Source of the DNA: Streptomyces harbinensis
GTDB lineage: Bacteria > Actinomycetota > Actinomycetes > Streptomycetales > Streptomycetaceae
Direction: 5' to 3'
Assembly: GCF_900116145.1 (NCBI RefSeq)
Contig: NZ_FPAB01000006.1
Location: 124,001 to 188,000 of the forward strand
DNA: 64,000 nucleotides
In this document: positions 6,807 through 21,530 of the stretch, one piece after another
Layout: every line of letters starts with the position of its first letter
Numbering within the stretch: position 1 is the first letter of the stretch
The notes under the pieces: generated by a model
What the model was told of the DNA's origin: nothing
Database searches by the model: none
Seen by the model: the letters and a program-made list of their open reading frames with translations, nothing else
Program-made: the position numbers and the translations under genes

Positions 6807-6852
6807 CGGATCTCTCCATTCGTGGTGGGGGGACGGAGAAAAGACCGATGCG

Positions 6853-6881
6853 ACGGTAGGTGCAACCTGACGGGTGGTCAA
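6853..6881 (-). promoter_or_regulatory. Candidate sigma-70-type promoter of the cellulase gene
   Basis: Read on the minus strand, TTGACC (6881-6876) and TACCGT (6858-6853) are separated by 17 nt, about 46 nt upstream of the start codon. Both hexamers match the housekeeping consensus at four or five positions. No palindromic operator was seen over it. Confidence 0.4.
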
Positions 6882-7053: not shown

Positions 7054-8556
7054 GTGACGCAGCCACCGCACTCCCCGGCGCGGCCCGGCCTGCCTCCACC
7101 CGGCCCGCCACCACCGGCCCTGCCGCCGGCTTCCCTGCCTGCCCCGCCGGCCGTACCGCCCGTACCGCCGCCCGCCCCGCCGGTGCCGCCCCGGCCGCCC
7201 GGCAGACCCCGGCTGTCGGACTGGGCGAAAGGGGTGCGCTCGCTGCGCGCGGCGGCCCGTACCGAACCCGGCCGGCTGCGGATCATCGGCGCGGCCGTGG
7301 TCGCCGCCCTGCTGCTGTTCGGCGCGGCCACCGCCTGGCAGATCGCCGACCGCGCCGAGGCCGCCGACACCCTCATCGACTCCAGCCAGCCGCTGAGCGC
7401 GGAGGCCGCCGACATCTACCGCTCGCTCGCGGACGCCAACACCAGCGCCGCCGTGGCGCTGCTGACCGGCACCGGCTCCGACCCGCAGGTACGGGAACGG
7501 TACGAGGAGCGCGTCGCCACCGCCGCCGCCCTGCTGACCCGGGCCGCGGCGCACACCGGCAACTCGCCCCGCGCGCAGGAACTGACCGCCGAGCTGAACG
7601 CCGAACTCCCGGTCTACACCGGCCTGGTGGAGACGGCCCGGGCCAACGACCGGCTGGGCCTGCCGCTGGGCGGCGCCTATCTGCGGTACGCCGACAGCCG
7701 GATGCAGGAGGTCCTGCTGCCGGCCGCCGCGTCGCTGTACGCGCTGGAGACCGAGCGTTTCCAGCACGATGCCCGGCGGGCCGCCGACTGGCCGTGGTTC
7801 TCGCTGGCCGCCGCCGGCCTCGCGCTGGCCGTCCTGGCCTGGGTCCAGCGCCGGCACTGGCTGCGTACCCACCGGGTGTTCAACCAGGGGCTGCTCGCGG
7901 CGACCGGGGCGGCGCTGGTGCTGCTGCTGTGGCTGACCGGCTCGCACACCCTGGCCCGGGCGGCGCTGCACGACGCGGACCGGGGCGGCGCGCAGTCGCT
8001 GAGCGCCCTCAACGACGCCTGGATCGCGGCGCTCCAGGCCCGCGGCGCCGAGGGCATGACCCTGGTGGCGCGCGGCTCGGGCACCGGGTTCGAGGAGAGC
8101 TACCAGGAACGCATGACCGAACTGGCGGGCCTGCCCGCCGGCAACGGGGAGAACGGCGCGGCCGACGGCGACGCGGCGGACACCCCGCAGGGGCGGCTCG
8201 GCACCGCCTGGCAGCTGGCCGACGACGAGGCCGGCCGGGCCCCCGTCGAGGCGGCCCACGCGGCGGTCGGCGAGTGGCGCGGGCTGCACGAGGAGGCCAG
8301 GCAGCGGGAGAATGCCGGGGAGTACCAGGAGGCGGTGGAACTGGTCATCGGCGAGGGTTCCACGGGGGAGGCCTTCGACCGGGTGGACGAGGCGCTGGCG
8401 CAGGCACTGGCGCACGAACAGGACCAGTTCACCCGGGCCGCCGAACGGGCCGTGACGGCCAGGACCGGGCTGCTGGTCGGCGCGCTGTCCCTGGCGGTAC
8501 TGGCGGCCGGCTGCGCCGTGCTGGGGATCAACCAGCGGCTGGCGGAGTACGGGTGA
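7054..8556 (+). CDS. GlnX-like four-helix membrane sensor protein of the PknG pathway
   Basis: 500 residues. Residues 1-50 are almost pure Pro/Ala and cytoplasmic. Helix 1 (about 75-97, IIGAAVVAALLLFGAATAW) leads to an extracytoplasmic helical domain. Helices 2 and 3 (about 247-298) flank a short basic loop (RRHWLRTHR). A second extracytoplasmic domain follows, then helix 4 (TGLLVGALSLAVLAAGCAVL). Two outward-facing helical domains fit mycobacterial GlnX, the membrane partner linking the Asp/Glu-binding protein GlnH to kinase PknG. The assignment rests on topology plus the neighbouring GlnH-like and PknG-like genes, not on a diagnostic motif. Start GTG at 7054 has a GGGGGGAGG site; a GTG at 7024 is less likely. 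First gene of the nine-gene operon. Confidence 0.72.
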   Translation: MTQPPHSPARPGLPPPGPPPPALPPASLPAPPAVPPVPPPAPPVPPRPPGRPRLSDWAKGVRSLRAAARTEPGRLRIIGAAVVAALLLFGAATAWQIADRAEAADTLIDSSQPLSAEAADIYRSLADANTSAAVALLTGTGSDPQVRERYEERVATAAALLTRAAAHTGNSPRAQELTAELNAELPVYTGLVETARANDRLGLPLGGAYLRYADSRMQEVLLPAAASLYALETERFQHDARRAADWPWFSLAAAGLALAVLAWVQRRHWLRTHRVFNQGLLAATGAALVLLLWLTGSHTLARAALHDADRGGAQSLSALNDAWIAALQARGAEGMTLVARGSGTGFEESYQERMTELAGLPAGNGENGAADGDAADTPQGRLGTAWQLADDEAGRAPVEAAHAAVGEWRGLHEEARQRENAGEYQEAVELVIGEGSTGEAFDRVDEALAQALAHEQDQFTRAAERAVTARTGLLVGALSLAVLAAGCAVLGINQRLAEYG

Positions 8557-8616
8557 GCGGGTGGGTGCGGGGGCGCGTGCGGGTGCGGGTGCGGCTGTGA
8601 GGGAGGAGGGACGACG

Positions 8617-9882
8617 GTGACGGAACGGGCGCGGACAGACGCGGCGGGAGCGGCGAACGCGACGGGAGCTGAGCGCGCCGACGCGACGGCGGCAGGACCC
8701 GCGGGTACGGCAGGAGCGGACACCACGGCAGCGGGACCCGTGGACGCGACGGACCCGGCCGCGTCCGCGGCCTCCGCCGCGGCTGCGGCCCTCGCCTCGG
8801 CGCCAGCCCGGGCACGTACCCGGACCGGGACGCGTACCCGCCGACGGCGGCCCGGCGGCGGCCGTCCGCTGCTCACCGCCGCCTGCGGCCTGGCGCTGGC
8901 CGGCTGGATGCTGGCCGGCTCCCTGCCCTCCCCCGGCGACACCGCCGGTGCCGGCCACGCCCACGGCGAGCCGCCACCGGTCGCCGGCGGCCGGGTGGTC
9001 CAGGTGGACGACACCACGGACGACGACGACACCATCGGCTCGCTCGCCGCCCGCGAAACCTGCGCGAACGGCACCGACCCCGCCGCGTACAGCTGGTCGC
9101 CCTCCCGCGACGGCGGCGAAGCGGTCCGGCGGATCACCGAACGCGGCCGGCTGATCGTGGGCGTCGACCAGAACAGCTACCTGTGGGGCTACCGCGCCCC
9201 CGACGACCCGCAGACCGTCATCGGCTTCGACATCGACCTGGCCCGCGCGGTGGCCGCCGATCTGCTCGGCGACCCCGGACGCGTCACCCTGCGGCCCATC
9301 CCCACCGACCAGCGGATCCCGCTGCTGGAGAACCGGGAGGTGGACATGGTCATCCGCAGCATGTCCATCACCTGCGACCGCTGGGAGGCGGTGGCGTTCT
9401 CCGCCCCGTACTTCGACACCGGCCAGCAACTGCTCGCCCCCCGCTGGTCCGGCATCACCGGCTTCGACTCCTCGCTGGCCGGCATGCGGGTGTGCAGCGG
9501 CGACGACACCACCGCCCGCGTCCTGCTGGAGCGGGAGCCGCACGGCGCCGAACTGGTCACCGCCGGCGGCCACCTGGACTGCCTGGTGCGCATCCAGCTC
9601 GGCGAGGCCGACGCCCTGATGACCGACGGCGCGCTCGCCGCCGCCCACGCGGCGCAGGACCCCACCATGCGGCTGATCGGCGAGCCGATCAAGGAGGAGT
9701 CCTACGGCATCGCCATGAACCTCGACGACCAGGACCTGGTGCGCCGGGTCAACGCCATACTGGAGGACTACCGCTCCGGTGGCGACGGCAGTGCCTGGCA
9801 GCTGGCGTACCGGACCTGGCTCGCCGACTGGTTCCCGCCGGACATCTCGCCCGAGCCGGCCGCGCCCCGCTACCGGGACTGA
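8617..9882 (+). CDS. GlnH-like membrane-anchored amino-acid-binding protein (SBP_bac_3)
   Basis: 421 residues. The first 80 are Ala/Thr/Arg-rich and predicted cytoplasmic. A membrane helix follows at about 84-103 (GLALAGWMLAGSLP), then the family-3 solute-binding fold from about residue 155: GRLIVGVDQNSYLWGYR, IGFDIDLARAVAADLLG, the ligand loop ENREVDMVIRSMSITCDR, FSAPYF and the late EADALMTDGALAA. These motifs mark a glutamate/glutamine/aspartate-type binding protein. A Cys sits at residue 90 inside the helix, but the sequence before it (TAAC after a basic run) is a poor lipobox, so I favour a helical anchor over a lipoprotein. No amino-acid permease is adjacent, so it probably senses rather than imports. 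GTG start with GGAGGAGGG upstream. Confidence 0.85.
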   Translation: MTERARTDAAGAANATGAERADATAAGPAGTAGADTTAAGPVDATDPAASAASAAAAALASAPARARTRTGTRTRRRRPGGGRPLLTAACGLALAGWMLAGSLPSPGDTAGAGHAHGEPPPVAGGRVVQVDDTTDDDDTIGSLAARETCANGTDPAAYSWSPSRDGGEAVRRITERGRLIVGVDQNSYLWGYRAPDDPQTVIGFDIDLARAVAADLLGDPGRVTLRPIPTDQRIPLLENREVDMVIRSMSITCDRWEAVAFSAPYFDTGQQLLAPRWSGITGFDSSLAGMRVCSGDDTTARVLLEREPHGAELVTAGGHLDCLVRIQLGEADALMTDGALAAAHAAQDPTMRLIGEPIKEESYGIAMNLDDQDLVRRVNAILEDYRSGGDGSAWQLAYRTWLADWFPPDISPEPAAPRYRD

Positions 9883-9997
9883 CGGTGAACCGCACCCGGG
9901 CGGGGGAAGGATCAAGCAGCAGTCGGAACCGAGCAGATCAGACCAGGTGAGCAGGCATGCAGCAGAAGCAGTGGCGGACGGGACAGAGGGGAGAACA

Positions 9998-11245
9998 ATG
10001 GCCCCGGATTCCGGTCAACGGGTGCTGAGCCGGGAGGAAGTGGACCGCGCCCTCGTACGGCTCGCCGCCGAGCACGAGGCGATCGAGTCCTCCCTGCTCA
10101 CCCTCCAGGACCACGCCGGCCGCCGGCTGCTCGAAGGCGCGCGGCTCACCGGGCTCACCCGCGAACGCTGGCAGCGTGCCGAGGCCACCGTCGCCGACCT
10201 GTGGTCCTGGTTCGAGACCTGCACCGAAACGCTCACCACCGCCCGTGAGCTGCGCGCCCGCCGCCGCTTCCCCGGACGCGAGGAACTGACCCGGCTCAGC
10301 CTGCTCCTGGAGGGCCGCAACCTGGTGATCTCCGGCGGCGAACTGCTCGCCGAACACACCAGCTGGCAGCAGCTGGTGGCCCGGATGAACCGCGGGTACG
10401 CCGAAGTCCTCGACGTCGTCGCCGCCGCCGACGCCGTGTGGTCCGCGCTGCCCGCCCGCATAGACCTGCTCTCCGCCGAACTGCGCCGGGTCAGCGAACT
10501 GGCCCACTCCGCCGGGGTGCGCCCCGGTACCCACCCGGCCGGCGACGACCTGGAACGGGTCACCGGCGAACTCACCGCGCTGCGCGCCGAGGTGATCTCC
10601 GACCCGCTGGCGTTCTGGCTGCCCGACCCCGGCCGGGCCACCCCCGGCGGAGGCCGCCCCGACACCGCACGCTACGACCGGGCCGCCCGCACCCTGGACG
10701 ACATCCGGCGCGAGGTGGACGCCGTCTTCGGCGTGCGCAAGGACGCCGAAGCCCGGCTGCTGGGCCTGCGCGACGTGCTCTCCCGGGCGGACCGCACCCT
10801 CGCCGAGGCCCGCGCCGCCCGGGTCGAGGTGCTCTCCAAGATCGCCGCCAGCGAGGTGCCGGCCGTCAGCGGGCCGCCCGTCGCCCTCCAGCAACAGCTC
10901 GCCACCGCGGGCGACTACCGGCGCCGCGCCCAGTGGCACCGGCTCTCCCCGCTCCTGGACGCCCTGGAGGTGCGGGCCGAGGAGGAGCTGGAGCGGGCCC
11001 GTTCCTCCCTCTCCGCCGTCACCGCCCCGCTCGCGATACGCGCCGAACTGCGCGGCCGGCTCGACGCGTACCGCGCCAAGGCCGTCCGGCTCGGCAAGGA
11101 CGACGACCCGCTGCTGGCCGAACGGTACGACGCCGCCCGCCGGCTGCTGTGGACCGCGCCGTGCGATCTGCGCGCCGCCGAGGGCGCCGTCCAGCGCTAC
11201 CAGGAGGTGGCGGCCGACCTGCTCTCCCCGAGGAGCGAGCCATGA
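9998..11245 (+). CDS. Helical coiled-coil-rich protein of the PknG operon, unknown function
   Basis: 415 residues, no signal peptide or membrane segment, rich in Leu, Ala, Arg and Glu with long heptad-like stretches (LVRLAAEHEAIESSLLTLQD near the N-terminus, EVRAEEELERARSSLSAV near the C-terminus). Predicted cytosolic and largely helical. I recognise no enzyme motif. Its place, after the GlnH-like protein and overlapping the kinase start by ATGA (11242-11245), implies co-translation with the kinase and suggests a scaffold, adaptor or substrate; that role is inference. Start ATG at 9998 has GGGGAG upstream; the frame stays open back to 9779 but without codons that make sense. Confidence 0.7.
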   Translation: MAPDSGQRVLSREEVDRALVRLAAEHEAIESSLLTLQDHAGRRLLEGARLTGLTRERWQRAEATVADLWSWFETCTETLTTARELRARRRFPGREELTRLSLLLEGRNLVISGGELLAEHTSWQQLVARMNRGYAEVLDVVAAADAVWSALPARIDLLSAELRRVSELAHSAGVRPGTHPAGDDLERVTGELTALRAEVISDPLAFWLPDPGRATPGGGRPDTARYDRAARTLDDIRREVDAVFGVRKDAEARLLGLRDVLSRADRTLAEARAARVEVLSKIAASEVPAVSGPPVALQQQLATAGDYRRRAQWHRLSPLLDALEVRAEEELERARSSLSAVTAPLAIRAELRGRLDAYRAKAVRLGKDDDPLLAERYDAARRLLWTAPCDLRAAEGAVQRYQEVAADLLSPRSEP

Positions 11246-13794
11246 GCGGCACCGGGTCCGGGCCGCTCCCCTGCCAGCGGCCCGACTGCGCCGGCCGGTA
11301 CGAGGACGTCGGCGACGGCCGGCTGTACTGCGACCTGTGCGGGCTCGCCCCGGTGCTGTCCCCGCGCGGCGACATCGGGACGGTGGCCACCGGGCTGACC
11401 GTTCCCCCGCAGCGCGGCCCCGCCCCTTCCCCTGAGCCGGAGCCGGAGCCGGCCTCGGCCTCGGCCGGTTCTGCCCCCCGGCCCGCCCCCGGGCCCGGCC
11501 CGGATTCCGGCGCCGGGCCCGGCTCCGCGCGGTCGCTGCCCAGCTCCCGCCTGTCGCACCGTTCCGTCTCCGGTTCGCTGTCCCGCTCCGGCGCCCACCC
11601 GTTCGCGGACCGCTCGGTGTCGGTCCGCAGCTCCCGGTCCACCGCCACCGGCTCCCGCCACCGGCTCGGCGCCGGCCTGGTGACCGTTCCCCCCGTACCG
11701 CGCCCCGACCCGCTCGACCAGGTGCTCGCCGACCCCGAAGTACCCGAGCGCAAACGCTTCTGCGGCAACAGCGACTGCGGCGAACGCGTCGGCCGCACCC
11801 GGGGCGACCGGCCGGGCCGCAGCGAGGGGTACTGCACCCGCTGCGGCCACCCGTACTCCTTCGTGCCCAAGCTGCGCCCGGGCGACCTGGTGCACGACCA
11901 GTACGAGATCGCCGGCTGCCTCGCCCACGGCGGCCTCGGCTGGATCTACCTCGCCCGCGACACCAAGGTCAGCAACCGCTGGGTGGTGCTCAAGGGCCTG
12001 CTGGACACCGGCGACGACGACGCCATGGAAGTGGCCATCTCCGAACGCCGCTTCCTCGCCGAGATCGAACACTCCACCATCGTGCGGATCTACAACTTCG
12101 TCGAACACCTCGACCGCCGCACCGGCAGCCTCGACGGCTACATCGTGATGGAGTACGTGGGCGGCCGGTCGCTGAAGGAGATCGCCAACGCCCGCCGCAC
12201 CCCCGACGGCCGCCGCGACCCGCTGCCGGTGGAGCAGGCGTGCGCGTACGGCATCGAGGCGCTCGACGCGCTCGCGCATCTGCACAGCCGCCAGTTGCTG
12301 TACTGCGACTTCAAGGTGGACAACGCGATCCAGCAGAACGACCAGCTCAAGCTCATCGACATGGGCGCGGTGCGGCGGATGGACGACACCGGGAGCGCGG
12401 TGTGGGGCACGGTCGGGTACCAGGCGCCCGAGGTCGCCGAGATCGGGCCGTCCGTCGCGTCCGACCTGTACACCGTGGCGCGGACCCTCGCGGTGCTGAC
12501 CTTCGACTTCCAGGGCTACACGACGGTCTTCCAGGACAGCTTGCCGGAGCCGGAGCACGTGGAGGTCTTCCAGCGGTACGAGTCGTTCTACCGGCTGCTC
12601 GTCCGGGCCACCGATCCGGACCCGGAGCGGCGGTTCTCCTCGGCGCAGCAGATGTCCGAGCAGCTGACGGGCGTGCTGCGGGAGGTGGTGGCGCTCCAGT
12701 CGGGGCAGCCGCAGCCGGCGCTGTCGCAGCTGTTCGGCCCGGAACTGCGGGTGCCGGACACCGAGCTGATGCCGGCCGTGGGCCGCGAGGTGTCGGCCCT
12801 GGGCGCGCGGCGGCGGCGCGGGAAGCACCCCCGGCCGGCGCCGGCGTCGCCGGCGGCGTCCGGCCCGCTGACCATGCCGGTGGACATCGAACGGACCGCC
12901 CTGTCGCTGCCGGTGCCCAAGGTCGCCCCGGACGACCCGAACGCGGGTTTCCTGTCGGGCCTGACGGCCGCCGCCCCGTCCGATCTGCTGGGCGCCCTGA
13001 ACGCCGCCCCGGCGGACTCCGTGGAGCGGCGGCTGCGCGAACTGCGCGCGCTGCTCGAACTGCCGGACAGCCGGGGCCGGGAGAGCGCCCGCCTGTTGCT
13101 GGCCGGACTGGAGAACGAGTACGGCGACGACTGGCGGGTCGTCTGGTACCAGGGCGTGGCGGCACTGGCCACCGGCGACCTGGGGACGGCGGCGCTGTCC
13201 TTCGACGCGGTGTACGACGCGTTCCCGGGCGAGGTGGCGCCGAAGCTGGCGCTCGCGGTCTGCGCCGAGACCCTGGGCCAGCTGGACAACGCGGCCGACT
13301 ACTACGAGCTGGTGTGGCGCACCGATCCCAGCCATGTCAGCGCGGGCTTCGGCCTGGCCCGGGTACGGCTGGCGGCCGGCGACCGCGAGCGGGCGGTGGC
13401 GGCGCTGGAGTCGGTGCCCGACACCTCGGCCCACCACATCGCCGCCCGGGTGGCGGCGGTACGGGCCCGGCTGCGGCAGCGTTCACCTGCGGAATCGCTC
13501 CTGCCGGACCTGCTGGCGGCGGGGCGGCAGGTGGAGGCGCTGCTCGCGGGCGGACTGGAACCATCGCTGGGTGAACAGCTGTCCTGTGAAGTGCTGGGGT
13601 CCGCGCTGGACTGGCTGCTGTCCGGCCATTCCGGACAGGATGGGCGGCTTCTGGGCACGCCACTGGAGGAGACGGGTATCAGACTGGGTCTGGAACGCTC
13701 CTACCGGCGGCTCGCGCAGTGGGCGCCGGACAGTAGTGAACGGATTGAACTGGTGGAGGCGGCCAACCGCTTCCGCCCGAGGACATGGGTGTGA
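11242..13794 (+). CDS. pknG: PknG-type Ser/Thr protein kinase with zinc ribbons and TPR tail
   Basis: 850 residues. Layout: an N-terminal CxxxxC...CxxC ribbon (about 10-37), a Ser/Pro/Arg-rich disordered linker, a rubredoxin-like four-Cys module (RFCGNSDCGE ... CTRCGHPY, about 172-210) as in PknG, then the kinase domain (about 218-480). Kinase motifs: AHGGLGWIYLARD (glycine loop), VVLKGL (Lys about 251), YCDFKVDNAI (catalytic Asp about 356, HRD replaced by YCD) and LIDMGAVR (DFG replaced by DMG, Asp about 373). The tail has tetratricopeptide-like helices (about 580-830). Mycobacterial PknG phosphorylates the FHA regulator OdhI/GarA and tunes glutamate and TCA metabolism; the FHA gene three places downstream is a natural partner candidate. 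Start overlaps the preceding stop. Confidence 0.88.
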   Translation: MSGTGSGPLPCQRPDCAGRYEDVGDGRLYCDLCGLAPVLSPRGDIGTVATGLTVPPQRGPAPSPEPEPEPASASAGSAPRPAPGPGPDSGAGPGSARSLPSSRLSHRSVSGSLSRSGAHPFADRSVSVRSSRSTATGSRHRLGAGLVTVPPVPRPDPLDQVLADPEVPERKRFCGNSDCGERVGRTRGDRPGRSEGYCTRCGHPYSFVPKLRPGDLVHDQYEIAGCLAHGGLGWIYLARDTKVSNRWVVLKGLLDTGDDDAMEVAISERRFLAEIEHSTIVRIYNFVEHLDRRTGSLDGYIVMEYVGGRSLKEIANARRTPDGRRDPLPVEQACAYGIEALDALAHLHSRQLLYCDFKVDNAIQQNDQLKLIDMGAVRRMDDTGSAVWGTVGYQAPEVAEIGPSVASDLYTVARTLAVLTFDFQGYTTVFQDSLPEPEHVEVFQRYESFYRLLVRATDPDPERRFSSAQQMSEQLTGVLREVVALQSGQPQPALSQLFGPELRVPDTELMPAVGREVSALGARRRRGKHPRPAPASPAASGPLTMPVDIERTALSLPVPKVAPDDPNAGFLSGLTAAAPSDLLGALNAAPADSVERRLRELRALLELPDSRGRESARLLLAGLENEYGDDWRVVWYQGVAALATGDLGTAALSFDAVYDAFPGEVAPKLALAVCAETLGQLDNAADYYELVWRTDPSHVSAGFGLARVRLAAGDRERAVAALESVPDTSAHHIAARVAAVRARLRQRSPAESLLPDLLAAGRQVEALLAGGLEPSLGEQLSCEVLGSALDWLLSGHSGQDGRLLGTPLEETGIRLGLERSYRRLAQWAPDSSERIELVEAANRFRPRTWV

Positions 13795-16700
13795 CGATGC
13801 CGCAGCTCGACCAACTCTCCGCCTGCCCCGGCTGCGGTGAGCCGTTGGATGCCGACGACGAGTTCTGCGGCAACTGCGGCCAACACCTGCGCACCCCTCC
13901 CCCGATGACAGCCCGCCCCGCCGCCCGCCGCCCCACCGCGCCGGGGGCGCGGGGCGCGGGAGCGCAGGGAACCGGACCGCAGAGCCCGGCCGCACCGGGC
14001 GCGGCAGCACCGGGCGCGGCAGCGCAGGGCACCGGACCACAGAGCCCGGCCGCACCGGGCGCGGCAGCGCAGGGGGCAACTCAGCGGGGCGCGGGAGCAC
14101 AGGCCACCGGACCGCAGGCCACGGCACAGCCGGGCACCACGGACGGCGCCGGTGCCCGGCCACAGGCCACGGACCCCGCTGGTGCGGCGCCCCGCACCCC
14201 AGCGGCCCCCGCAGGCAACGGCGCGACGGTGCCGACCGGCACGCAGCCCCCCGGAAAGACGGCCCCGGCCGCGCCGCAGACCCCGGACGCGGCATCGACG
14301 TCCACACCCGATCGGCGACCGAACGACCCCGCCACCGGGGCCCCCGCCCTGGGCGGGCGGCCCCCGGCCGCCGGCCGGGCCCAGGCGCCCGCTCACCCCG
14401 GCGCCACGCCACCGGCGCCCGGCACCGGCGCGACCCCGGCCCGCCCCGCCGGGGCGCAAGCACCGGCCGGCGCGGTCTCGAACACCCCTGCCGCACCTCC
14501 GGATACAGCGGCGCCCGGCCCCGGAACCGCCCCGGTCCGGCCGGCTGGCACGGCACCGGGCAGCCCGGCCATGCCGGGCACCGGCAGCACGCCGACCGGT
14601 GCCCCCGGAACACCGGCACCGGCACCGGACGCCGCGCAGGCGCCTGCACCGCAAGCCCCCGGTATCGGTACACCCCAGCAGCCCACCGCCGCGAACACCC
14701 CGGCGCACGGCGCGGGTCCGAACCCCAGCGCGCCCGGCACCGCTCAAGGCCGCACCACCAACCCCGGTGCGGCAACCGGCAGCGACAACGCACCGGTCAC
14801 GGCTCCCCCGGCCCAGGCCCCGGGCACGGCCGCCAACGGACCAGCCACCCCCACCGGTACGGCCTCGCAGCGCGCCGGACAGGGCCCGGAATCGCCACCG
14901 GCGGTAGGCGGAACCAGCGGCAGCAACGACAAGCCGTCCGCCGCACCCCGCGCACACACACCGGCGCCGAACCCCGGAAGCGCCCCGCAGCAGCCCGCCC
15001 CAGCGCCCGGCGCCGGACAGCACCCCGCAGCCAACAGCCCGCACCCGTCACCGGCAGCAGCTGCCCCCGGCAGCGGCGCCCCTTCGCAGGCGCCGGCGCC
15101 CGGTGCCGCGTCCAGCACCCCGGCCGCGCCCGCTGGAACCGCGCCGCAGCAGCCCGCCGCGACCACCCAGGCACACGACGGCAAGCCGAACGTTTCGGCT
15201 GCGGGTCCGGGTACCACTTCCCCGGCCATCCCCGGCCACTCCGCGGCAGGGGCCGGCAAGGGCAACGGCAAGGCCACGAGCCCGGCTCCCGCTTCCGCCC
15301 AGCGGTCCGGTTCGGCCGGGGCCGCCGCCGGAGCGACGCCCGACAACCCCGCACGGCCCGCACCCAGCGACCCGGCAGCGCAGGGGCCCGGGGCGGGTTC
15401 CGCCGCCGCTGCTCGTCCGGCTCAGCCTGCCGCCCCGGCAGCGTCGCCGAACGCGCCTTCCGCCGCCCCGGCGGCTCCGCCGCAGGGCGGGGCGTCTTCC
15501 GGGCCGGCCGGCGGGCAGGCCGGTGCGGGGCGGGGGGAGGCGTACACGCCCACCGAGCCGGACTTCACCCTGCCGCCGCCGCAGCCGCAGCCGCAGGGGC
15601 CCGCCGGGTCGGCGCGGGGGAAGGCCGCGCCCCGGGCGGCGTCGGCGCCGCCGTCGCAGCCGCCGTCCTCGGCCGCCCCGGCGCAGCCCGCCCCCGCGCA
15701 GCCCTCGTCGGCTCCGCGGCTGCCCTCCCTCGATCCGCGGGCCACTGCCGCCGCCTCCGTCGCAGCGTCCGCGTCCGCCGCGTCCGGGCCCACCTCCCCG
15801 TCCTCCGCGTCCGGGTCCACCTCCGCCTCCGCCGCGTCCGGGGCCCCCGCCTCCGCCTCCGCCGCCGGTTCCGGGGGCTCCGCCTCCGCCGCCAACTCCC
15901 TGGGCACCGCCCCCGCCGATCCGCGGGCCGCCGCCGATCCGCGGACGCGGGACGCTCGGCCGCCGAACCGCGAGACCCATCCCGTGCTGTGCGCGCTCTG
16001 CTCGAAGGGCCGGGTCGACGCCGACGGCTACTGCTCCGACTGCGGCCGGGCGCAGCCCGGCGAGCGTGATCATGTCGAGCGGGCGCTCGGCGGGGTGGCC
16101 GCCGTGACGGACCTGGGGTTGCGGCACCACCGCAACGAGGACTCGTTCACCGTCTCGGCCACCGCCCTCGCCGACGGTTCACCGGCGGTCATCGCCGTCG
16201 TCTGTGACGGCGTGTCCTCCTCCTCCCGGCCGCACGAGGCGTCCGCCGCCGCCTCCGAGGCGGCGGCGGAATCGCTGCTCGCCTCGCTGCCGCGCGGCGT
16301 CTCCGGTCAGCAGGCCATGCACGACGCCGTCCTGTCGGCCGCCCGCGCGGTCGCCGATCTGGCCGACGCCGCCGCCGAGCCCGGGCAGAACGCCCCGGCC
16401 TGCACGCTGGTCAGCGCGGTCACCGCCGGCGGCATCCTCACCGTGGGCTGGGTCGGCGACAGCCGCGCCTACTGGATCCCCGCCGAACGCGGCGCCGCCG
16501 CGGCCCGGCTGACCGAGGACGACTCGTGGGCGGCCCAGATGGTGGCCGCCGGGCTGCTCAGCGAGGCGGAGGCGATGGCGGACCACCGCGCGCACGCCAT
16601 CACCGCCTGGCTCGGCGCGGACGCGGTCGAGGTCGAGCCGCACACCGCGTCGTTCAAGCCGGACCGGCCCGGCGTGGTGATCGTGTGCACGGACGGCCTG

Positions 16701-16871
16701 TGGAACTACGCCGAGTCCGCCGAGCAGCTGGCGCGGCTGGTGCCCGCCGGGGCCCGGGAGACCCCGTTGCCGACCGCCCAGCAACTGGTGCGGCACGCCC
16801 TGGAGTCGGGTGGCCACGACAACATCACCGTCGCGGTCATCCCGTTCCCGGTGGTGGATGTGGCGCGATGA
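13791..16871 (+). CDS. PP2C-family protein phosphatase with two zinc ribbons and a giant disordered linker
   Basis: About 1026 residues, several times the usual PP2C length. A short N-terminal ribbon (CPGCGEP ... FCGNCGQ) is followed by some 680 residues of Pro/Ala/Gly/Thr low complexity, a second ribbon (CALCSKGR ... CSDCGR) and a C-terminal PP2C domain of about 260 residues. Metal and catalytic motifs are intact: HHRNEDSF, VCDGVSS, VGWVGDSRAYW, VCTDGLWNYAE and HDNITVAV. It should be an Mn/Mg-dependent Ser/Thr phosphatase opposing the upstream kinase. The GTG at 13791 overlaps the kinase stop (GTGA) and lies 9 nt after GAGG; ATGs at 13785 and 13797 are alternatives. The linker holds a 60-bp tandem DNA repeat. 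Its stop overlaps the VWA start. Confidence 0.9.
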   Translation: MTMPQLDQLSACPGCGEPLDADDEFCGNCGQHLRTPPPMTARPAARRPTAPGARGAGAQGTGPQSPAAPGAAAPGAAAQGTGPQSPAAPGAAAQGATQRGAGAQATGPQATAQPGTTDGAGARPQATDPAGAAPRTPAAPAGNGATVPTGTQPPGKTAPAAPQTPDAASTSTPDRRPNDPATGAPALGGRPPAAGRAQAPAHPGATPPAPGTGATPARPAGAQAPAGAVSNTPAAPPDTAAPGPGTAPVRPAGTAPGSPAMPGTGSTPTGAPGTPAPAPDAAQAPAPQAPGIGTPQQPTAANTPAHGAGPNPSAPGTAQGRTTNPGAATGSDNAPVTAPPAQAPGTAANGPATPTGTASQRAGQGPESPPAVGGTSGSNDKPSAAPRAHTPAPNPGSAPQQPAPAPGAGQHPAANSPHPSPAAAAPGSGAPSQAPAPGAASSTPAAPAGTAPQQPAATTQAHDGKPNVSAAGPGTTSPAIPGHSAAGAGKGNGKATSPAPASAQRSGSAGAAAGATPDNPARPAPSDPAAQGPGAGSAAAARPAQPAAPAASPNAPSAAPAAPPQGGASSGPAGGQAGAGRGEAYTPTEPDFTLPPPQPQPQGPAGSARGKAAPRAASAPPSQPPSSAAPAQPAPAQPSSAPRLPSLDPRATAAASVAASASAASGPTSPSSASGSTSASAASGAPASASAAGSGGSASAANSLGTAPADPRAAADPRTRDARPPNRETHPVLCALCSKGRVDADGYCSDCGRAQPGERDHVERALGGVAAVTDLGLRHHRNEDSFTVSATALADGSPAVIAVVCDGVSSSSRPHEASAAASEAAAESLLASLPRGVSGQQAMHDAVLSAARAVADLADAAAEPGQNAPACTLVSAVTAGGILTVGWVGDSRAYWIPAERGAAAARLTEDDSWAAQMVAAGLLSEAEAMADHRAHAITAWLGADAVEVEPHTASFKPDRPGVVIVCTDGLWNYAESAEQLARLVPAGARETPLPTAQQLVRHALESGGHDNITVAVIPFPVVDVAR
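13961..14068 (+). repeat. 60-bp-period tandem repeat within the phosphatase linker
   Basis: Two copies of a 48-bp sequence (13961-14008 and 14021-14068) differ at two positions and are spaced at exactly 60 bp. Each encodes AQGTGPQSPAAPGAAA, and the 12 bp between them repeat part of the same unit (PGAA). It expands the disordered linker in frame. Repeats like this vary in length by slippage. Confidence 0.85.
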
Positions 16872-18145
16872 GTACGGGGCCGGTCTTCGGCGTCGAGGTC
16901 TACCAGAACGAGTATCTGCACCGAGGCGCCGACGAGATGCACGCGATCGTCACGGTCACCGCCACCGGCGGTGACCGGTCCTCGGACGCCGCCGTGGTGA
17001 TCATGGTGGACTGCTCGGGGTCGATGAACTACCCCTCCGCCAAGATGGACGCGGCCCGCCGCGCCACCGAGGCGGCCCTCGACACGCTGCGCGACGGCAC
17101 CGCGTTCGCCGTGGTGGCCGGTACGCACCGGGCCAGGGAGGTCTATCCGGGCGGGGGCCGGCTCGCGGTCGCCGACGCGGCCACCCGCGCGGCGGCGAGG
17201 CGGTCGCTGGGCGGGCTGACGGCGGACGGCGGCACCGCCATCAGCACCTGGCTGCTGCTCGCCGACCGGCTGCTGGCGACCTCCGGCGCCGCCGTCCGGC
17301 ACGGGCTGCTGCTCACCGACGGCCGTAACGAGCACGAGGAGCCGGAGCGGCTGCGCGCGGCGCTGGAGCGGTGCGCGGGCCACTTCACGTGTGACGCGCG
17401 TGGCGTCGGCACCGACTGGGAGGTGCGGGAGGTCACCGAGATCGCCGGCACGCTCCTGGGCAGCGCCGACATCGTCGCCGAACCGGAGGACCTGACGGCC
17501 GACTTCACCGCCATGATGGAGGCGGTGATGGGCAAGGGCATCGGGGATGTGAGCCTGCGCCTGTGGACGCCGCTGGGCGCGTCGGTGCGGTACGTGAAGC
17601 AGGTGGCCCCCGCAGTCGCCGATCTCACCGGGCGCCGTGCCGAGGCACCGCCGCGCGCCGGGGACTATCCGACGGGTTCCTGGGGCGAGGAGTCCCGCGA
17701 CTACCACCTCAGTGTGCGGGTGCCGCCGTGCGACGTGGGCCAGGAGATGCTGGCCGCCCGGGTGTCCCTGGTCGGCCCGGACGGGGTGACGGTCAGTGCC
17801 CGGCCCGGTCTGGTGCGCGCCGTGTGGACCGCCGATCCGGCCGCCGCCACCGCGCTCCATCCGCAGGTCGCCCACTACACCGGGCAGGAGGAGCTGGCCC
17901 GCGTCATCCAGCAGGGCGTCGATCTGCGCAAGCGCGGGGACACCGCCGGCGCCGCCGCCCGGCTGGGCCGGGCCGTCCAGCTGGCGCACGTCTCCGGCCA
18001 CGAGCAGACCTCACAACTGCTCGCAAAGGTAGTGGACGTGGAGGATGCGGCGACCGGTACTGTTCGGCTGAAGGCGAAAGTCGCCGAGGCCGACGCGATG
18101 ACCCTGGAGACGAGGTCGACGAAGACGGTCCGGGTAAAGAAGTAG
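16868..18145 (+). CDS. VWA (von Willebrand factor A) domain protein, TerY-like
   Basis: 425 residues, cytosolic. The VWA domain (about 35-235) has the MIDAS metal site: VIMVDCSGSMNYPS with DxSxS starting at D48, a Thr in the loop LTADGGTAISTWL, and LLLTDGRNEHEEPE as the third element. The C-terminal half holds beta-rich segments (DYHLSVRVPPCDVG) and then a helical region (RKRGDTAGAAARLGRAVQLA) with a TPR-like look. Intact MIDAS suggests metal-dependent binding of a partner protein. The start ATG overlaps the phosphatase stop (ATGA), implying equimolar synthesis. A VWA protein beside a PP2C and a Ser/Thr kinase matches the TerY-P triad described for tellurium-resistance-linked systems. Confidence 0.88.
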   Translation: MSTGPVFGVEVYQNEYLHRGADEMHAIVTVTATGGDRSSDAAVVIMVDCSGSMNYPSAKMDAARRATEAALDTLRDGTAFAVVAGTHRAREVYPGGGRLAVADAATRAAARRSLGGLTADGGTAISTWLLLADRLLATSGAAVRHGLLLTDGRNEHEEPERLRAALERCAGHFTCDARGVGTDWEVREVTEIAGTLLGSADIVAEPEDLTADFTAMMEAVMGKGIGDVSLRLWTPLGASVRYVKQVAPAVADLTGRRAEAPPRAGDYPTGSWGEESRDYHLSVRVPPCDVGQEMLAARVSLVGPDGVTVSARPGLVRAVWTADPAAATALHPQVAHYTGQEELARVIQQGVDLRKRGDTAGAAARLGRAVQLAHVSGHEQTSQLLAKVVDVEDAATGTVRLKAKVAEADAMTLETRSTKTVRVKK

Positions 18146-18187
18146 TCGACATGAGAAGAATCAGCGGAAGCAGGGGGAGGCAGTAAC

Positions 18188-19159
18188 ATGCCGACGTGCC
18201 CGAACGGCCACCAGTCGGCGGCCGAGGACTGGTGCGAGGTGTGCGGGTACCGCATGCCGGCGCCCGCGCCCGCCGCCGCGATGCCCCCGCCGCCCGGAGC
18301 GTTCGGCCAGCAGCCCCCGGGTCCGCCCGGTCCCCCCGCGCCGCCGCCCGGCCCGCCCGGCTATCCGGCGGCCCCGCCGATGCAGCCCGCGCCGGCCGGC
18401 GAGCACTGTCCCCAGTGCCGTACGCCGCGTGAGGCGCAGGCCCCGTTCTGCGAGGGCTGCCGGTACAACTTCCTGACCAACTCCCCCACCACCTACATAC
18501 CTCCGCTGCGTGCCGATGGGCCGCCGATACCCGGCGCACCGCCCCAGCACCAGCAGCCCCAGCACCAGCCTCCCCACCAGCCGCCGGCCCCGCCCCACCC
18601 CTACGGCCACGGCCACGGTCACGGCCACCAGCCGCCGCCCGCCCCGCCGGCGCCCGGTGGCGCCCCCGGCCAGACCGGCGACTGGGTGCTCCCGCCGCCC
18701 GCGCAGCAGCCCCCGCAGCAGGCCCCCGGCGGCTACGGCTACCCGCCGCGCGGCGGCGCGTGGATGGTGACGGTCGGCCCCGACCCCGACTACTTCCAGG
18801 CCATGATGCGCCGCTCCGGCCCCGAGGCCGCGCAGCTGAGCCTGCCGCCGTACGCACCACCCCGCCAGCTGCCGCTGAGCGGACCGCAGGTCACCGTCGG
18901 CCGCCGCCGCCAGTCCACCGGCGAGAGCCCGGACATCGACCTGTCCCAGCCGTCCGAGGACCCGGGAGTCTCCCACCAGCACGCCGTGCTCGTCCAGCAG
19001 CCGGACGGCAGCTGGGCGGTGGTCGACCAGGACTCCACCAACGGGACCACGGTCAATGGGTCGGAGGATCCGATCCAGCCGTTCGTTCCGGTACCGCTGC
19101 GCGAGGGAGACCGCGTGCACGTCGGTGCCTGGACCACCATCACGCTCTACAGGGGATAG
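18188..19159 (+). CDS. FHA-domain protein with two zinc ribbons
   Basis: 323 residues. Two N-terminal ribbons (CPNGHQSAAEDWCEVCGY and CPQCRTPREAQAPFCEGC) flank a Pro-rich stretch. A long Pro/Gln/His-rich linker follows, including an HGHGHGHG run, and a C-terminal FHA domain begins near residue 235: VTVGRRRQ, DPGVSHQHAVL and DSTNGTTVNG give the phosphothreonine-binding Arg, Ser-His and Asn residues. It should dock Thr-phosphorylated proteins made by the upstream kinase. Unlike OdhI/GarA it is not a short single-domain protein, and I could not identify an obvious N-terminal ETT-type phosphosite. GGGGGAGG precedes the ATG at 42 nt after the VWA gene. Confidence 0.88.
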   Translation: MPTCPNGHQSAAEDWCEVCGYRMPAPAPAAAMPPPPGAFGQQPPGPPGPPAPPPGPPGYPAAPPMQPAPAGEHCPQCRTPREAQAPFCEGCRYNFLTNSPTTYIPPLRADGPPIPGAPPQHQQPQHQPPHQPPAPPHPYGHGHGHGHQPPPAPPAPGGAPGQTGDWVLPPPAQQPPQQAPGGYGYPPRGGAWMVTVGPDPDYFQAMMRRSGPEAAQLSLPPYAPPRQLPLSGPQVTVGRRRQSTGESPDIDLSQPSEDPGVSHQHAVLVQQPDGSWAVVDQDSTNGTTVNGSEDPIQPFVPVPLREGDRVHVGAWTTITLYRG

Positions 19160-19170
19160 GAGCAGTCTCA

Positions 19171-19899
19171 GTGGACCAACCCGCCATATCTGTCAGCGGG
19201 CTGCGGAAGACATACGGGGATGTGCAAGCGGTCGACGGGGTGACCTTCGAGGTGGCGCCCGGCGAGTTCTACGGCATTCTGGGGCCCAACGGCGCGGGCA
19301 AGACCACCACGCTGGAGATCGTCGAGGGGCTGCGCCGCCCCGATGAGGGCACGGCCGAGCTGTTCGGCATCCCCTCCTGGCCGCGCAACTACGAGCTGCT
19401 GCGCCGGATCGGCGTCCAGCTCCAGGCGACCGCGTTCTTCGAGAAACTCACCGCGCGCGAACAGATCCACACCTTCGCCGATCTGTACGAGGTGCCGCGC
19501 GAACGCGCGGACGCCATGCTGGAGTCGGTCGGCCTCACCGAGAAGGCCGACGTGAGCGACACGGAGCTGTCGGGCGGCCAGGCCCAGCGGCTGTCGATCG
19601 CCTGTGCCCTGGTGCACGATCCGGAGCTGGTGTTCCTGGACGAGCCGACCACCGGTCTCGATCCGCAGGCGCGCCGCAACATGTGGGATCTGCTGCGCGA
19701 GATCAACGCCGCCGGCCGGACCGTGGTGCTGACCACCCACTATCTGGACGAGGCCGAGGTCCTGTGCGACCGCGTCTCGATCATGGACGCCGGCCGGATT
19801 CTGCGCACCGGCCCGCCCGCCGAGCTGATCTCCGAGCTGGGTGTGAAGACCCTGGAGGACGTGTTCCTCCAGCTGACCGGCCGGGAGTTCCGCCAGTGA
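19171..19899 (+). CDS. ABC transporter ATP-binding protein (ABC-2 type)
   Basis: 242 residues. A full set of ATPase motifs is present: Walker A GPNGAGKTTTLE, Q-loop LQATAFFEKLTAREQ, signature LSGGQAQRLSIA, Walker B LVFLDEPTTGLDPQ and the switch His in LTTHYLDEAE. The CcmA/DrrA-like family exports drugs, lipids or polymers with an ABC-2 permease, supplied by the next gene. Start is GTG at 19171, 12 nt after the FHA stop with GGAG upstream; the open frame to 18760 is a shadow. Being the eighth gene of the PknG operon suggests the transporter is an output, or a regulated client, of the phosphorylation pathway. Confidence 0.92.
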   Translation: MDQPAISVSGLRKTYGDVQAVDGVTFEVAPGEFYGILGPNGAGKTTTLEIVEGLRRPDEGTAELFGIPSWPRNYELLRRIGVQLQATAFFEKLTAREQIHTFADLYEVPRERADAMLESVGLTEKADVSDTELSGGQAQRLSIACALVHDPELVFLDEPTTGLDPQARRNMWDLLREINAAGRTVVLTTHYLDEAEVLCDRVSIMDAGRILRTGPPAELISELGVKTLEDVFLQLTGREFRQ

Positions 19900-20972
19900 G
19901 CCGTAGCCTCGGGGGGCTCGTTCCCCTCTCCAGAACCATGGTGCTCGGCCTGGTGCGGGACCGCACGGCCGTGTTCTTCATGCTGATCTTCCCGCTGATG
20001 TTCCTGGTGCTGTTCGGCGCGCTCTTCCAGGACACCTCGGTCTCGCGCTCGCCGATCGCCCAGGTCGGCGACGTCGAACTGCTGGAGGAGTTGCCGGCGG
20101 ACTACCGCGCCGACCTGGACAAGGTGGTGGAGCTGCGGCGCGCCGCCGATCTCGACGAGGCGCTGAAGCAGGTCCGCGACGGCGATGTGGCCGGCGCGAT
20201 CTGGCAGGACGGCACCACCATCGAGGTGCGCTACTCGGAGGCGGACGGGGTACGGGCGGGCACCGTCCGCAGCGTGGTCCAGACGCTGGTGGAGTCGGCG
20301 AACCTGGCCGCGACCGGCCAGCCGCCGACGTACACGATCGCGATGGACACGGTCGAGGACGACTCGGTCAAGCCGATCCAGTTCCTGGCGCCGGGGCTGC
20401 TGGGCTGGGCGGTGGCGATGGGCGGGGCGTTCCTGTCCGCGCTCACCCTGGTCAGCATGCGCAAGACCCGGCTGCTGCGCCGGCTGTGGCTGGCCCCGGT
20501 CCGTCCGTGGGCCGTGGTCGCGGGCCGGGTGGGGGTGACGCTGGGGCTGGCCGTGGTGCAGACGGCGGTGTTCCTGGGCGTCGCGGTGATCCCGTTCTAC
20601 GGGCTCCAGCTGAGCGGGGCGTGGTGGCTGTCCATTCCGCTGGTGCTGTGCGGCTCGCTGGCGTTCATGTCGATCGGCCTGATCATCGGGGCGGTGGCGA
20701 AGACCGAGGAGGCGGCCAACGGCATCCTCCAGGTGACGATCATGCCGATGGCGTTCCTGTCGGGGTCGTTCTTCCCGGCGGACGTGATGCCGTCCTGGCT
20801 GTCGACGATCGCCCAGGTGATGCCGCTCAAGCACCTCAACGAGGCGCTGATGGCGGTCCTCAGCCGCGACGACAGCTGGGGCACGGCGCTGCCGGTGATG
20901 GGCGGGCTGCTGCTCTTCACGGCGGTGTGCACGGCGATCGCGGCGAAGCTGTTCCGCTGGGACAGCGCCTGA
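19896..20972 (+). CDS. ABC-2 type transporter permease
   Basis: 358 residues. One N-terminal helix (VFFMLIFPLMFLVLFGALF) precedes an extracytoplasmic domain (about 45-155), then five helices in the C-terminal half, including SALTLVSMRKTRLLRRLWLAPV, the typical cytoplasmic loop of ABC-2 permeases. The signature late motif AFLSGSFFPADVMPSWL is clear. It pairs with the upstream ATPase; GTG at 19896 overlaps the ATPase stop by 4 nt. The substrate is not predictable. It is the last gene of the operon; a G-C hairpin follows the stop. Confidence 0.9.
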   Translation: MSRSLGGLVPLSRTMVLGLVRDRTAVFFMLIFPLMFLVLFGALFQDTSVSRSPIAQVGDVELLEELPADYRADLDKVVELRRAADLDEALKQVRDGDVAGAIWQDGTTIEVRYSEADGVRAGTVRSVVQTLVESANLAATGQPPTYTIAMDTVEDDSVKPIQFLAPGLLGWAVAMGGAFLSALTLVSMRKTRLLRRLWLAPVRPWAVVAGRVGVTLGLAVVQTAVFLGVAVIPFYGLQLSGAWWLSIPLVLCGSLAFMSIGLIIGAVAKTEEAANGILQVTIMPMAFLSGSFFPADVMPSWLSTIAQVMPLKHLNEALMAVLSRDDSWGTALPVMGGLLLFTAVCTAIAAKLFRWDSA

Positions 20973-21017: not shown

Positions 21018-21422
21018 TCAGCCGGGGGTGTTGATCATCGAGCCGGCCGCGTAGACCATGTAGCGCCACATCTCGGCCTCGTCCTCCGGGTCGAGGCCGA
21101 GGGTGTCGATGGCGTCGCGCATGTGCCGCAGCCAGGCGTCGTGGGCGGCGCGGTCGACCGTGAACGGAGCGTGCCGCATCCGCAGCCGGGGGTGACCGCG
21201 CCGGTCGCTGTAGGTGCGCGGGCCGCCCCAGTACTGCATGAGGAAGAGGGCGAAGCGCTCCTCGGCCGGCCCGAGGTCCTCCTCGGGGTACATGGGCCGC
21301 AGCAGCGGATCGTCGGCCACGCCCTCGTAGAAGCGCTTCACCAGCTTCCGGAAGGTGGCCTCGCCGCCGACGCGCTCGTAGAAGGTCTCGGTGGGCAGGG
21401 TGCCGCGTCGGATCTCGTTCAC
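21018..21422 (-). CDS. glbO: Group II truncated haemoglobin (GlbO type)
   Basis: 134 residues, full length for trHbO. Group II hallmarks are visible: FYERVGGEATFRKLVKRFYE near the N-terminus, PMYPEEDLGPAEERFALFL, the YWGGP motif after helix E, the proximal His region HPRLRMRHAPF, and Trp in AHDAWLRHM at the G8 position. These haems bind oxygen and NO and are linked to redox or nitrosative protection; the exact role in streptomycetes is not fixed. The start is the GTG at 21422, but the upstream GGGAGG runs directly into it, so the true start may be slightly different. Divergent from the XRE regulator gene. Confidence 0.88.
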   Translation of the reverse strand: MNEIRRGTLPTETFYERVGGEATFRKLVKRFYEGVADDPLLRPMYPEEDLGPAEERFALFLMQYWGGPRTYSDRRGHPRLRMRHAPFTVDRAAHDAWLRHMRDAIDTLGLDPEDEAEMWRYMVYAAGSMINTPG

Positions 21423-21530
21423 CCTCCCATGGTCGCAGACCGGTTCCCGGGGGCGGGAACTCACGGAGAGTAGACCGGGGGCGACAGCGCGCGGCAGACT
21501 GATCCGGTCGCGGATGAGGAGGGCAGGCAG

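Follow-up and report, generated by a model that had tools for sequence, protein, structure and literature searches.

Gene content of the operon

We analysed a stretch of 64,000 nucleotides from Streptomyces harbinensis (contig NZ_FPAB01000006.1), hereafter the window, in which nine genes at 7054-20972 join homologues of the GlnX-GlnH-PknG signalling system to a PP2C phosphatase, a von Willebrand factor type A (VWA) protein, a forkhead-associated (FHA) protein, a helical protein that we call CC, and an ABC-2 transporter pair. A first-pass annotation of the sequence had described nine co-directional genes, and this is borne out by the strand, by the domain matches, and by a third-position GC content of 0.87-0.97 in each gene. 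The genes are tightly packed, with successive gaps from gene 1 to gene 9 of 60, 115, -4, -4, -4, 42, 11, and -4 nt, and the 4-nt overlaps previously placed at 11242, 13791, 16868, and 19896 proved exact when the gene ends were recounted. An alternative start at ATG 13785 is possible for PP2C. A promoter scan returned no match, and the single terminator-like site falls within the permease gene, with 1.6 such sites expected by chance. The genes are as follows.

7054-8556, plus strand: GlnX-family membrane signal transducer of 500 residues with a Pro-rich N terminus (NF058618)
8617-9882, plus strand: GlnH-type solute-binding protein of 421 residues with one N-terminal hydrophobic segment (SBP_bac_3, 2e-22)
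9998-11245, plus strand: CC, a mostly helical protein of 415 residues without an assigned family, member of the core module
11242-13794, plus strand: PknG, with an N-terminal zinc-ribbon-like Cys motif, a Ser-rich stretch, and rubredoxin, kinase, and TPR domains
13791-16871, plus strand: PP2C phosphatase with two zinc-ribbon motifs and a low-complexity linker (Stp1_PP2C_phos, 3e-32)
16868-18145, plus strand: VWA protein with an intact metal ion-dependent adhesion site (MIDAS), a VWA_3_C domain (2e-21), and a C-terminal Ser-x-x-Thr tail
18188-19159, plus strand: FHA protein with two N-terminal zinc-ribbon motifs (FHA, 2e-15)
19171-19899, plus strand: ABC ATPase, a patchy neighbour outside the core that begins 11 nt 3' of the FHA gene (ABC_tran, 2e-29)
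19896-20972, plus strand: ABC-2 permease, a patchy neighbour outside the core (ABC2_membrane_3, 2e-40)

Judged by its sequence, the locus belongs to the GlnX-GlnH-PknG family. GlnX, which has about four hydrophobic segments, scored 437 bits against the family model NF058618 (cut-off 250) and 177 bits against the mycobacterial equivalog model NF041460 (cut-off 780), placing it in the same family but not in that equivalog. The best solved relative of the window's GlnH is the GlnH structure 6h1u (1e-48). With pocket roles taken from PMC6069109 and positions transferred by alignment to 6h1u, the GlnH of the window retains counterparts of R147, S164, R169, and D250, while T162 is replaced by Ser, K161 by Arg, and W232 by His; in 69 of 73 GlnH proteins from the named loci described below, R, R, T, T, R, Q, and D occupy positions R147, K161, T162, S164, R169, W232, and D250, respectively. 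An acidic amino acid is a plausible ligand. PknG shows the full rubredoxin-kinase-TPR layout (PknG_TPR 7e-87, PknG_rubred 6e-29), aligns to the solved Mycobacterium tuberculosis PknG (2pzi, 7e-169), and keeps the catalytic K, D, and D.

The glnX-glnH-pknG operon has been published as conserved in Actinobacteria (PMC6069109), a signalling role for it has been described in Corynebacterium (PMC9769921, PMC8546545), and GarA/OdhI is an established substrate of PknG (PMC6069109, PMC8546545). The window resembles the operon of Mycobacterium and Corynebacterium in its homologues, their domain layout, their arrangement in one cluster, and an unlinked GarA. However, it differs in carrying four more conserved genes (CC, PP2C, VWA, and FHA), in the additional Cys motif and Ser-rich stretch at the N terminus of PknG, and in the altered side-chain pocket of GlnH.

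The third gene had been counted but left unnamed in the first-pass annotation. Its product, CC, matches none of the Pfam and NCBIfam models at E 0.1, and its AlphaFold2 model is confident and mostly helical (predicted local distance difference test 87, predicted template modelling score 0.68). A Foldseek search with CC found no structure at an E of 0.001 or better, the matches from a profile search against solved structures were all weak (best E 0.0025), and no confirmed relative was found among viral contigs. A resemblance to EzrA was rejected, as a VIA-align Z of 10.5 came with a root-mean-square deviation of 17, within the chance range for helical bundles. In PP2C the metal-site motifs are conserved. 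Its linker (window 13800-16000) is about 750 residues of Pro/Ala/Gly-rich low complexity with tandem repeats of 13-60 bp, compared with a median of 181 and a maximum of 423 residues at 104 other Streptomyces loci. The phosphopeptide site of the FHA protein is preserved across 27 aligned sequences, with G, S, H, and N at least 90% and Arg at least 70% conserved. Zinc-ribbon motifs are common to PknG, PP2C, and FHA of this operon.

Conservation of a seven-gene unit

We mapped gene order around 78 PknG loci selected by their PknG_TPR match, comprising all 18 further places of a search among relatives and 60 chosen by hand from a search of the class so as to spread over families. Among 33 loci of the same genus, counting the window, the order GlnX, GlnH, CC, PknG, PP2C, VWA, FHA was found in 31, each from a different genome, the two exceptions (L029 and L030) being second PknG copies. 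All seven genes are also present in 7/7 loci of family f3, in the single locus of family f12, and in 6 of the 11 loci of family f17, where three of the other five are cut by contig ends. In family f16, nine of 20 loci read CC, PknG, PP2C, VWA, FHA, GlnX, GlnH, four more have this arrangement without a detected CC, and the remaining seven are partial, second copies, or cut by contig ends. Thus GlnX-GlnH comes last in most of family f16, as it does in L001, and in a locus from another class of the phylum (L202) GlnX-GlnH faces a CC-PknG-PP2C-VWA-FHA block. In Nonomuraea gerenzanensis the order is permuted, with gene ends overlapping. Separately, L187, L189, and L196 carry GlnX-GlnH-CC-PknG-VWA-FHA and, after it, another GlnH-GlnX pair in the opposite orientation.

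Smaller arrangements also occur. Of the five f6 loci, three consist of GlnX, GlnH, and PknG only, one has a lone PknG, and one (L089) has all seven genes. The three-gene form is also that of both f41 loci and of the named loci from Tsukamurella and Nocardia farcinica, and PknG stands alone on one Nocardia plasmid. Two plasmids deserve mention in their own right. A 121-kb Tsukamurella tyrosinosolvens plasmid record holds a complete GlnX-GlnH-PknG operon (L002, 9449-14106). A plasmid of Nocardia sp. NBC_00511 (L003, 3823-14109) encodes a PknG homologue close to type VII secretion genes; this homologue adjoins an amino-acid permease and an NAD-glutamate dehydrogenase, and no GlnX or GlnH was detected with it.

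A scan with a VWA profile yielded 80 named Streptomyces-type loci. The seven genes stand in the same order in every one of the 58 loci that reach 21 kb, and among the 22 shorter loci, which are cut by contig ends, all seven are present in 10 and not in 12. The first-pass suggestion that VWA, PP2C, and FHA genes share one conserved cluster with GlnH-GlnX-PknG is therefore upheld by 58/58 long named loci and 31/31 same-genus genomes, and the outcome that would have spoken against it, a failure of the genes to co-occur in related genomes, was clearly not seen. SCO3621 and SCO1551 were considered as candidates for the Streptomyces coelicolor locus, and neither was confirmed.

Genome-wide counts point the same way. 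In a class sample of 394 genomes, in which the best four to five candidates per genome were scored for each protein so that misses are possible, 156 have PknG_TPR (including weak matches in G103 and G190 and fragments in G141), 104 have VWA at 1e-30, and 93 have CC at 1e-10. VWA occurred in 104 of the 156 genomes with PknG and in 0 of the 238 without it. The 1e-30 line was set after the results; at 1e-10 the VWA count rises to 126, and the 22 weaker genomes, some of them without PknG, show mostly partial domain matches and were taken to hold other VWA proteins. Repeating the VWA count on 148 genomes added nothing. In 33 of the 104 genomes, picked by hand among the places listed, VWA lies 1.1-1.8 kb from the end of the PknG TPR domain. 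PknG and VWA occur together in 45 of the 47 same-genus genomes of the sample, one of them fragmentary, and 91 of the 93 CC genomes also have PknG. CC went undetected in 19/104 VWA genomes, and six genomes (G050, G074, G167, G175, G183, G313) have CC and PknG without VWA at 1e-30, although in G074 a local search did recover VWA (L053). In the search among relatives, PknG was not found in G001, G002, G008, and G013; G002 and G008 have CC at contig ends and were not counted as losses.

It could be argued that these genes are simply old neighbours kept together for convenient co-expression, with no direct working links. We consider this the least probable of the explanations weighed here, for the linkage survives three layouts (GlnX-GlnH first, last, or facing the block), VWA was not found without PknG in the 394 genomes, and the four genes lost jointly from the reduced loci described below are not all adjacent.

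The ABC-2 pair behaves differently, and the core unit consists of GlnX, GlnH, CC, PknG, PP2C, VWA, and FHA with the pair outside it. The pair lies 3' of FHA in the window, in two of the 80 named loci (L163 and L171), and in the reduced loci L199 and L200, while in L035 it lies upstream and divergent. L179 has a weak ABC-2 match of 28 bits, and at L042, L043, L072, and L076 FHA is followed by an ABC ATPase on the same strand, with no ABC-2 permease detected. In the CC tree, a single clade (100/100) holds the window, L163, and L171; the carriers L199, L200, and L035 fall outside it, and the distribution is thus patchy. A nine-gene relay ending in a transporter, as the first-pass annotation had proposed, does not hold for a pair that adjoins FHA in only 2/80 named loci.

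The VWA tail, gene loss, and a proposed relay

The VWA protein has the intact MIDAS ascribed to it earlier, D48, S50, S52, T123, and D151 being invariant in 20 aligned VWAs. At its C terminus, S417 and T420 are also invariant (20/20), and the other end residues vary. Of 151 VWAs whose loci include FHA, 147 have a Ser/Thr/Tyr-x-x-Thr tail, and 123 of these 147 have V (112), L (6), M (3), or I (2) three positions after the Thr. In the recognition of phospho-Thr by FHA domains the +3 residue carries weight, and GarA holds a phospho-Thr tail and an FHA domain within a single chain. The invariant Thr, the +3 residue, and the analogy to GarA lead us to propose that VWA and FHA form a split, intermolecular GarA-like switch written by PknG, in which the Ser-x-x-Thr tail is likely the in-operon phosphosite bound by FHA. 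The tail is missing from VWA in seven of 10 FHA-less modules, as judged by eye and leaving out four loci cut by contig ends (L117, L128, L129, L170); L029 and L191 show only a looser pattern positioned away from the tail. PDB 4fx5 (entitled von Willebrand factor type A) is a solved structure homologous to the operon VWA over the full length (1e-124), and its sequence includes the tail as well (STKTVRAKR). In the divergent CC-PknG-VWA modules (L190-L193, L184, L029), the VWA C terminus lies in or near a zinc-ribbon motif in place of the Ser-x-x-Thr tail. A docking site for FHA on a phospho-Thr at the PknG N terminus, in the mycobacterial manner, is disfavoured because the stretch before the rubredoxin domain is Ser-rich with few conserved Thr by eye in Streptomyces, and the VWA tail is preferred for the same reason.

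Natural losses divide the unit. CC, PP2C, and FHA are intact at the locus in two genomes with CC and no PknG (G252, G280) and in one with fragments of PknG and VWA (G141). At L199, L200, and L201, GlnX, GlnH, PknG, and VWA are gone or fragmentary, the loss of GlnX and GlnH being judged at the locus only. The stretches of the reduced loci contain no N, the ABC-2 pair is present in two of the three, and the CC tree requires three separate loss events. Between L199 and L200 or L201, the kept genes show nonsynonymous divergence (dN) of 0.19-0.28 and synonymous divergence (dS) of 0.54-0.76 by NG86, with dS near saturation and dN/dS correspondingly rough. PP2C in the reduced loci is as constrained as between full loci, and CC slightly less so. 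Mirror-image modules with CC, PknG, and VWA but without PP2C and FHA occur at L184, L190-L193, L198, and L029. From these losses and mirror-image modules, we read GlnX, GlnH, PknG, and VWA as a sensing and writing arm, and PP2C, FHA, and CC as an erasing and reading arm, which would have to serve other kinases too.

The same gene sets could be taken to mean that two largely separate pathways share one operon, namely GlnX-GlnH-PknG-VWA and a PP2C-FHA-CC group that works with other kinases and, in some lineages, with an ABC-2 exporter. Mycobacterial Rv1747 is an FHA-ABC exporter to which FHA and the ABC-2 pair would be likened. The genes kept in L199, L200, and L201, with ABC-2 retained in two of them, and the mirror-image modules agree with such a division. 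However, linkage is complete elsewhere, and the VWA tail tends to disappear along with FHA, so that we regard two pathways as improbable.

We tentatively favour a conserved actinobacterial Ser/Thr phospho-signalling module, as a reading with a substantial chance of being correct, that would work in the following way. GlnH would bind a small amino acid outside the membrane, and GlnX would relay its state through the membrane to the PknG TPR domain, a step with literature support in relatives. PknG would then phosphorylate the VWA tail at Thr420 (or Ser417) in addition to GarA, its usual target, the gene for which lies elsewhere. FHA would bind the phosphorylated tail of VWA between molecules, as the FHA domain of GarA does within one molecule, PP2C would reset the phosphorylated state, and CC may act as a helical scaffold. 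In some lineages, including that of the window, an ABC-2 pair adjoins FHA.

Several observations weigh against this proposal. The GlnH ligand may differ, since the position of Trp232 is occupied by His in the window and by Gln in most Streptomyces. Among 20 further VWA loci picked by hand from the VWA places, L183, L185, and L188 have VWA without PknG in the stretch fetched and L186 has a partial PknG; these are second or split loci in genomes that do have PknG. VWA is rare outside the class, with one other genome besides 12 same-genus ones in a phylum draw of 296. The tail pattern is unmatched in 4/151 VWAs with a nearby FHA gene, the FHA-less modules L064, L066, and L067 keep the tail, and the association between tail and FHA rests on few independent lineages. 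Moreover, the binding residues of FHA are kept in the three loci that lost VWA, which implies that VWA is not its sole ligand and that other partners are needed. Finally, dN/dS for FHA is 0.40-0.45 among reduced loci versus 0.18 and 0.29 for the window against the full loci L171 or L163, and constraint on FHA may be relaxed.

Another explanation would be that PknG, as in mycobacteria, acts via GarA only, freeing 2-oxoglutarate dehydrogenase, with PP2C dephosphorylating GarA or PknG, and VWA, FHA, and CC assembling or tuning the kinase. GarA/OdhI is the PknG substrate in the literature (PMC6069109, PMC8546545), and the genome of the window encodes an orthologue elsewhere (L091, 1132-1848; 194.7 bits, slightly short of the 200-bit cut-off) that carries the ETTS motif (SSETTSTIS). 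The operon FHA protein was ruled out as a second GarA, with 20 bits on the OdhI model (cut-off 200), which suits this explanation as well. However, a GarA homologue is present in 13/13 genomes tested (178-193 bits, each below the curated 200-bit cut-off). G252 and G280, where PknG_TPR has no match, are among them, and GarA thus does not need PknG. In addition, CC, PP2C, and FHA outlast the loss of the kinase and so are not just tuners of PknG. We therefore consider action through GarA only fairly unlikely.

Related systems and the origin of the three-gene operon

The first-pass annotation had likened the operon to the TerY-P triad and to the control of type VI secretion. TerY-P is a known kinase/PP2C/VWA triad, and the type VI phosphorylation pathway involves an ABC transporter that we take to be TagST. 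As far as resemblance goes, the comparison stands. A kinase, a phosphatase, and an FHA protein act in the threonine phosphorylation pathway of type VI control, where PpkA, PppA, and Fha1 with TagQRST provide the kinase, PP2C-type phosphatase, FHA protein, and envelope sensor found here too (PMC12133291, which also lists, as reference 69, a paper whose title places an ABC transporter in this pathway). Membership of the type VI pathway is not supported: the operon FHA protein was ruled out as a TagH-type FHA (30.8 bits on the VI_FHA model, cut-off 120), no type VI gene is among the seven, and here the kinase is a soluble PknG with a TPR domain, the sensor is a solute-binding protein, and VWA is a separate gene.

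GAP1-N2-linked systems share with the operon an adjacent kinase, PP2C, and standalone VWA with zinc ribbons (PMC7159879). The unit might accordingly be a stress or conflict module of the kinase-PP2C-VWA triad kind (TerY-P or GAP1-N2-linked), with GlnX-GlnH as its trigger, since the kinase of the actinobacterial GAP1-N2 systems has a zinc ribbon (PMC7159879) and PknG, PP2C, and FHA of the operon all carry such motifs. Here, however, the kinase is of the PknG type and accompanied by GlnX, GlnH, and FHA, and no GTPase or known effector domain was found by Pfam in the seven genes, CC being without a match. No GAP1-N2 GTPase appeared among the nine genes in the general Pfam scan, in which no named GAP1-N2 model was searched. 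PADLOC gave generic kinase and ATPase matches plus one weak PP2C match, and a defence system was rejected on the same grounds. Given also that PknG and VWA are nearly universal in same-genus genomes, unlike patchy conflict systems, a conflict module seems to have little chance of being the answer.

In a midpoint-rooted PknG tree of 61 rows, with the CC-PknG-VWA paralogues placed outside, a single clade (100/100) unites seven loci with three genes or a lone PknG, the named loci of Tsukamurella and Nocardia among them. It is sister (100/99) to the full f6 loci L089 and L197, amid many lineages with the full module. The other minimal rows (f41 and L056) need separate changes, and the nearest rows to the PknG of the window are S. 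radicis and Streptomyces sp. ACA25. The f6 genomes G264 (L197) and G333 (L089) have the full seven-gene module and four PknG_TPR matches each. As it is nested beside full modules, the mycobacterial-type three-gene operon is probably a reduction of the seven-gene module. That PknG belonged ancestrally to a seven-gene module of sensor, writer, reader, and eraser, that its switch is a split GarA, and that the three-gene operon is a secondary reduction keeping the GarA output only is a broader history that we find possible but rather doubtful.

Around the operon, the window holds a GH5 cellulase upstream (5727-6881, minus strand), a bacterial-type globin downstream (21018-22187, minus strand), and an open reading frame with a thioester domain (PF08341; 25433-28540, minus strand).

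No description of the seven-gene unit was found in the open-licence literature, with subscription papers mostly not covered, and within open-licence papers this agrees with the first-pass statement that no full description exists in streptomycetes. In the portions of text available for PMC6069109, PMC9769921, and PMC8546545, CC, PP2C, VWA, and FHA are not named as operon neighbours, although figure 2B of PMC6069109 (STRING) could show them; the main text of a 2025 GarA engineering paper (PMC12321487) does not contain "operon", "GlnX", or "von Willebrand".

On the basis of sequence comparison, the seven-gene unit is a real, widely conserved extension of the known GlnX-GlnH-PknG signalling system. 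The wiring of PknG has so far been read from the three-gene operon, mainly in mycobacteria and corynebacteria; if the seven-gene form is ancestral, four conserved partners of PknG have been overlooked, including a VWA protein with a solved homologue (4fx5). The natural losses hint at which parts of the module work together, and the module gives direct candidates for PknG binding and phosphorylation targets. It also offers candidates for how Streptomyces may tie its metabolism, and perhaps antibiotic production, to the amino acids outside the cell.

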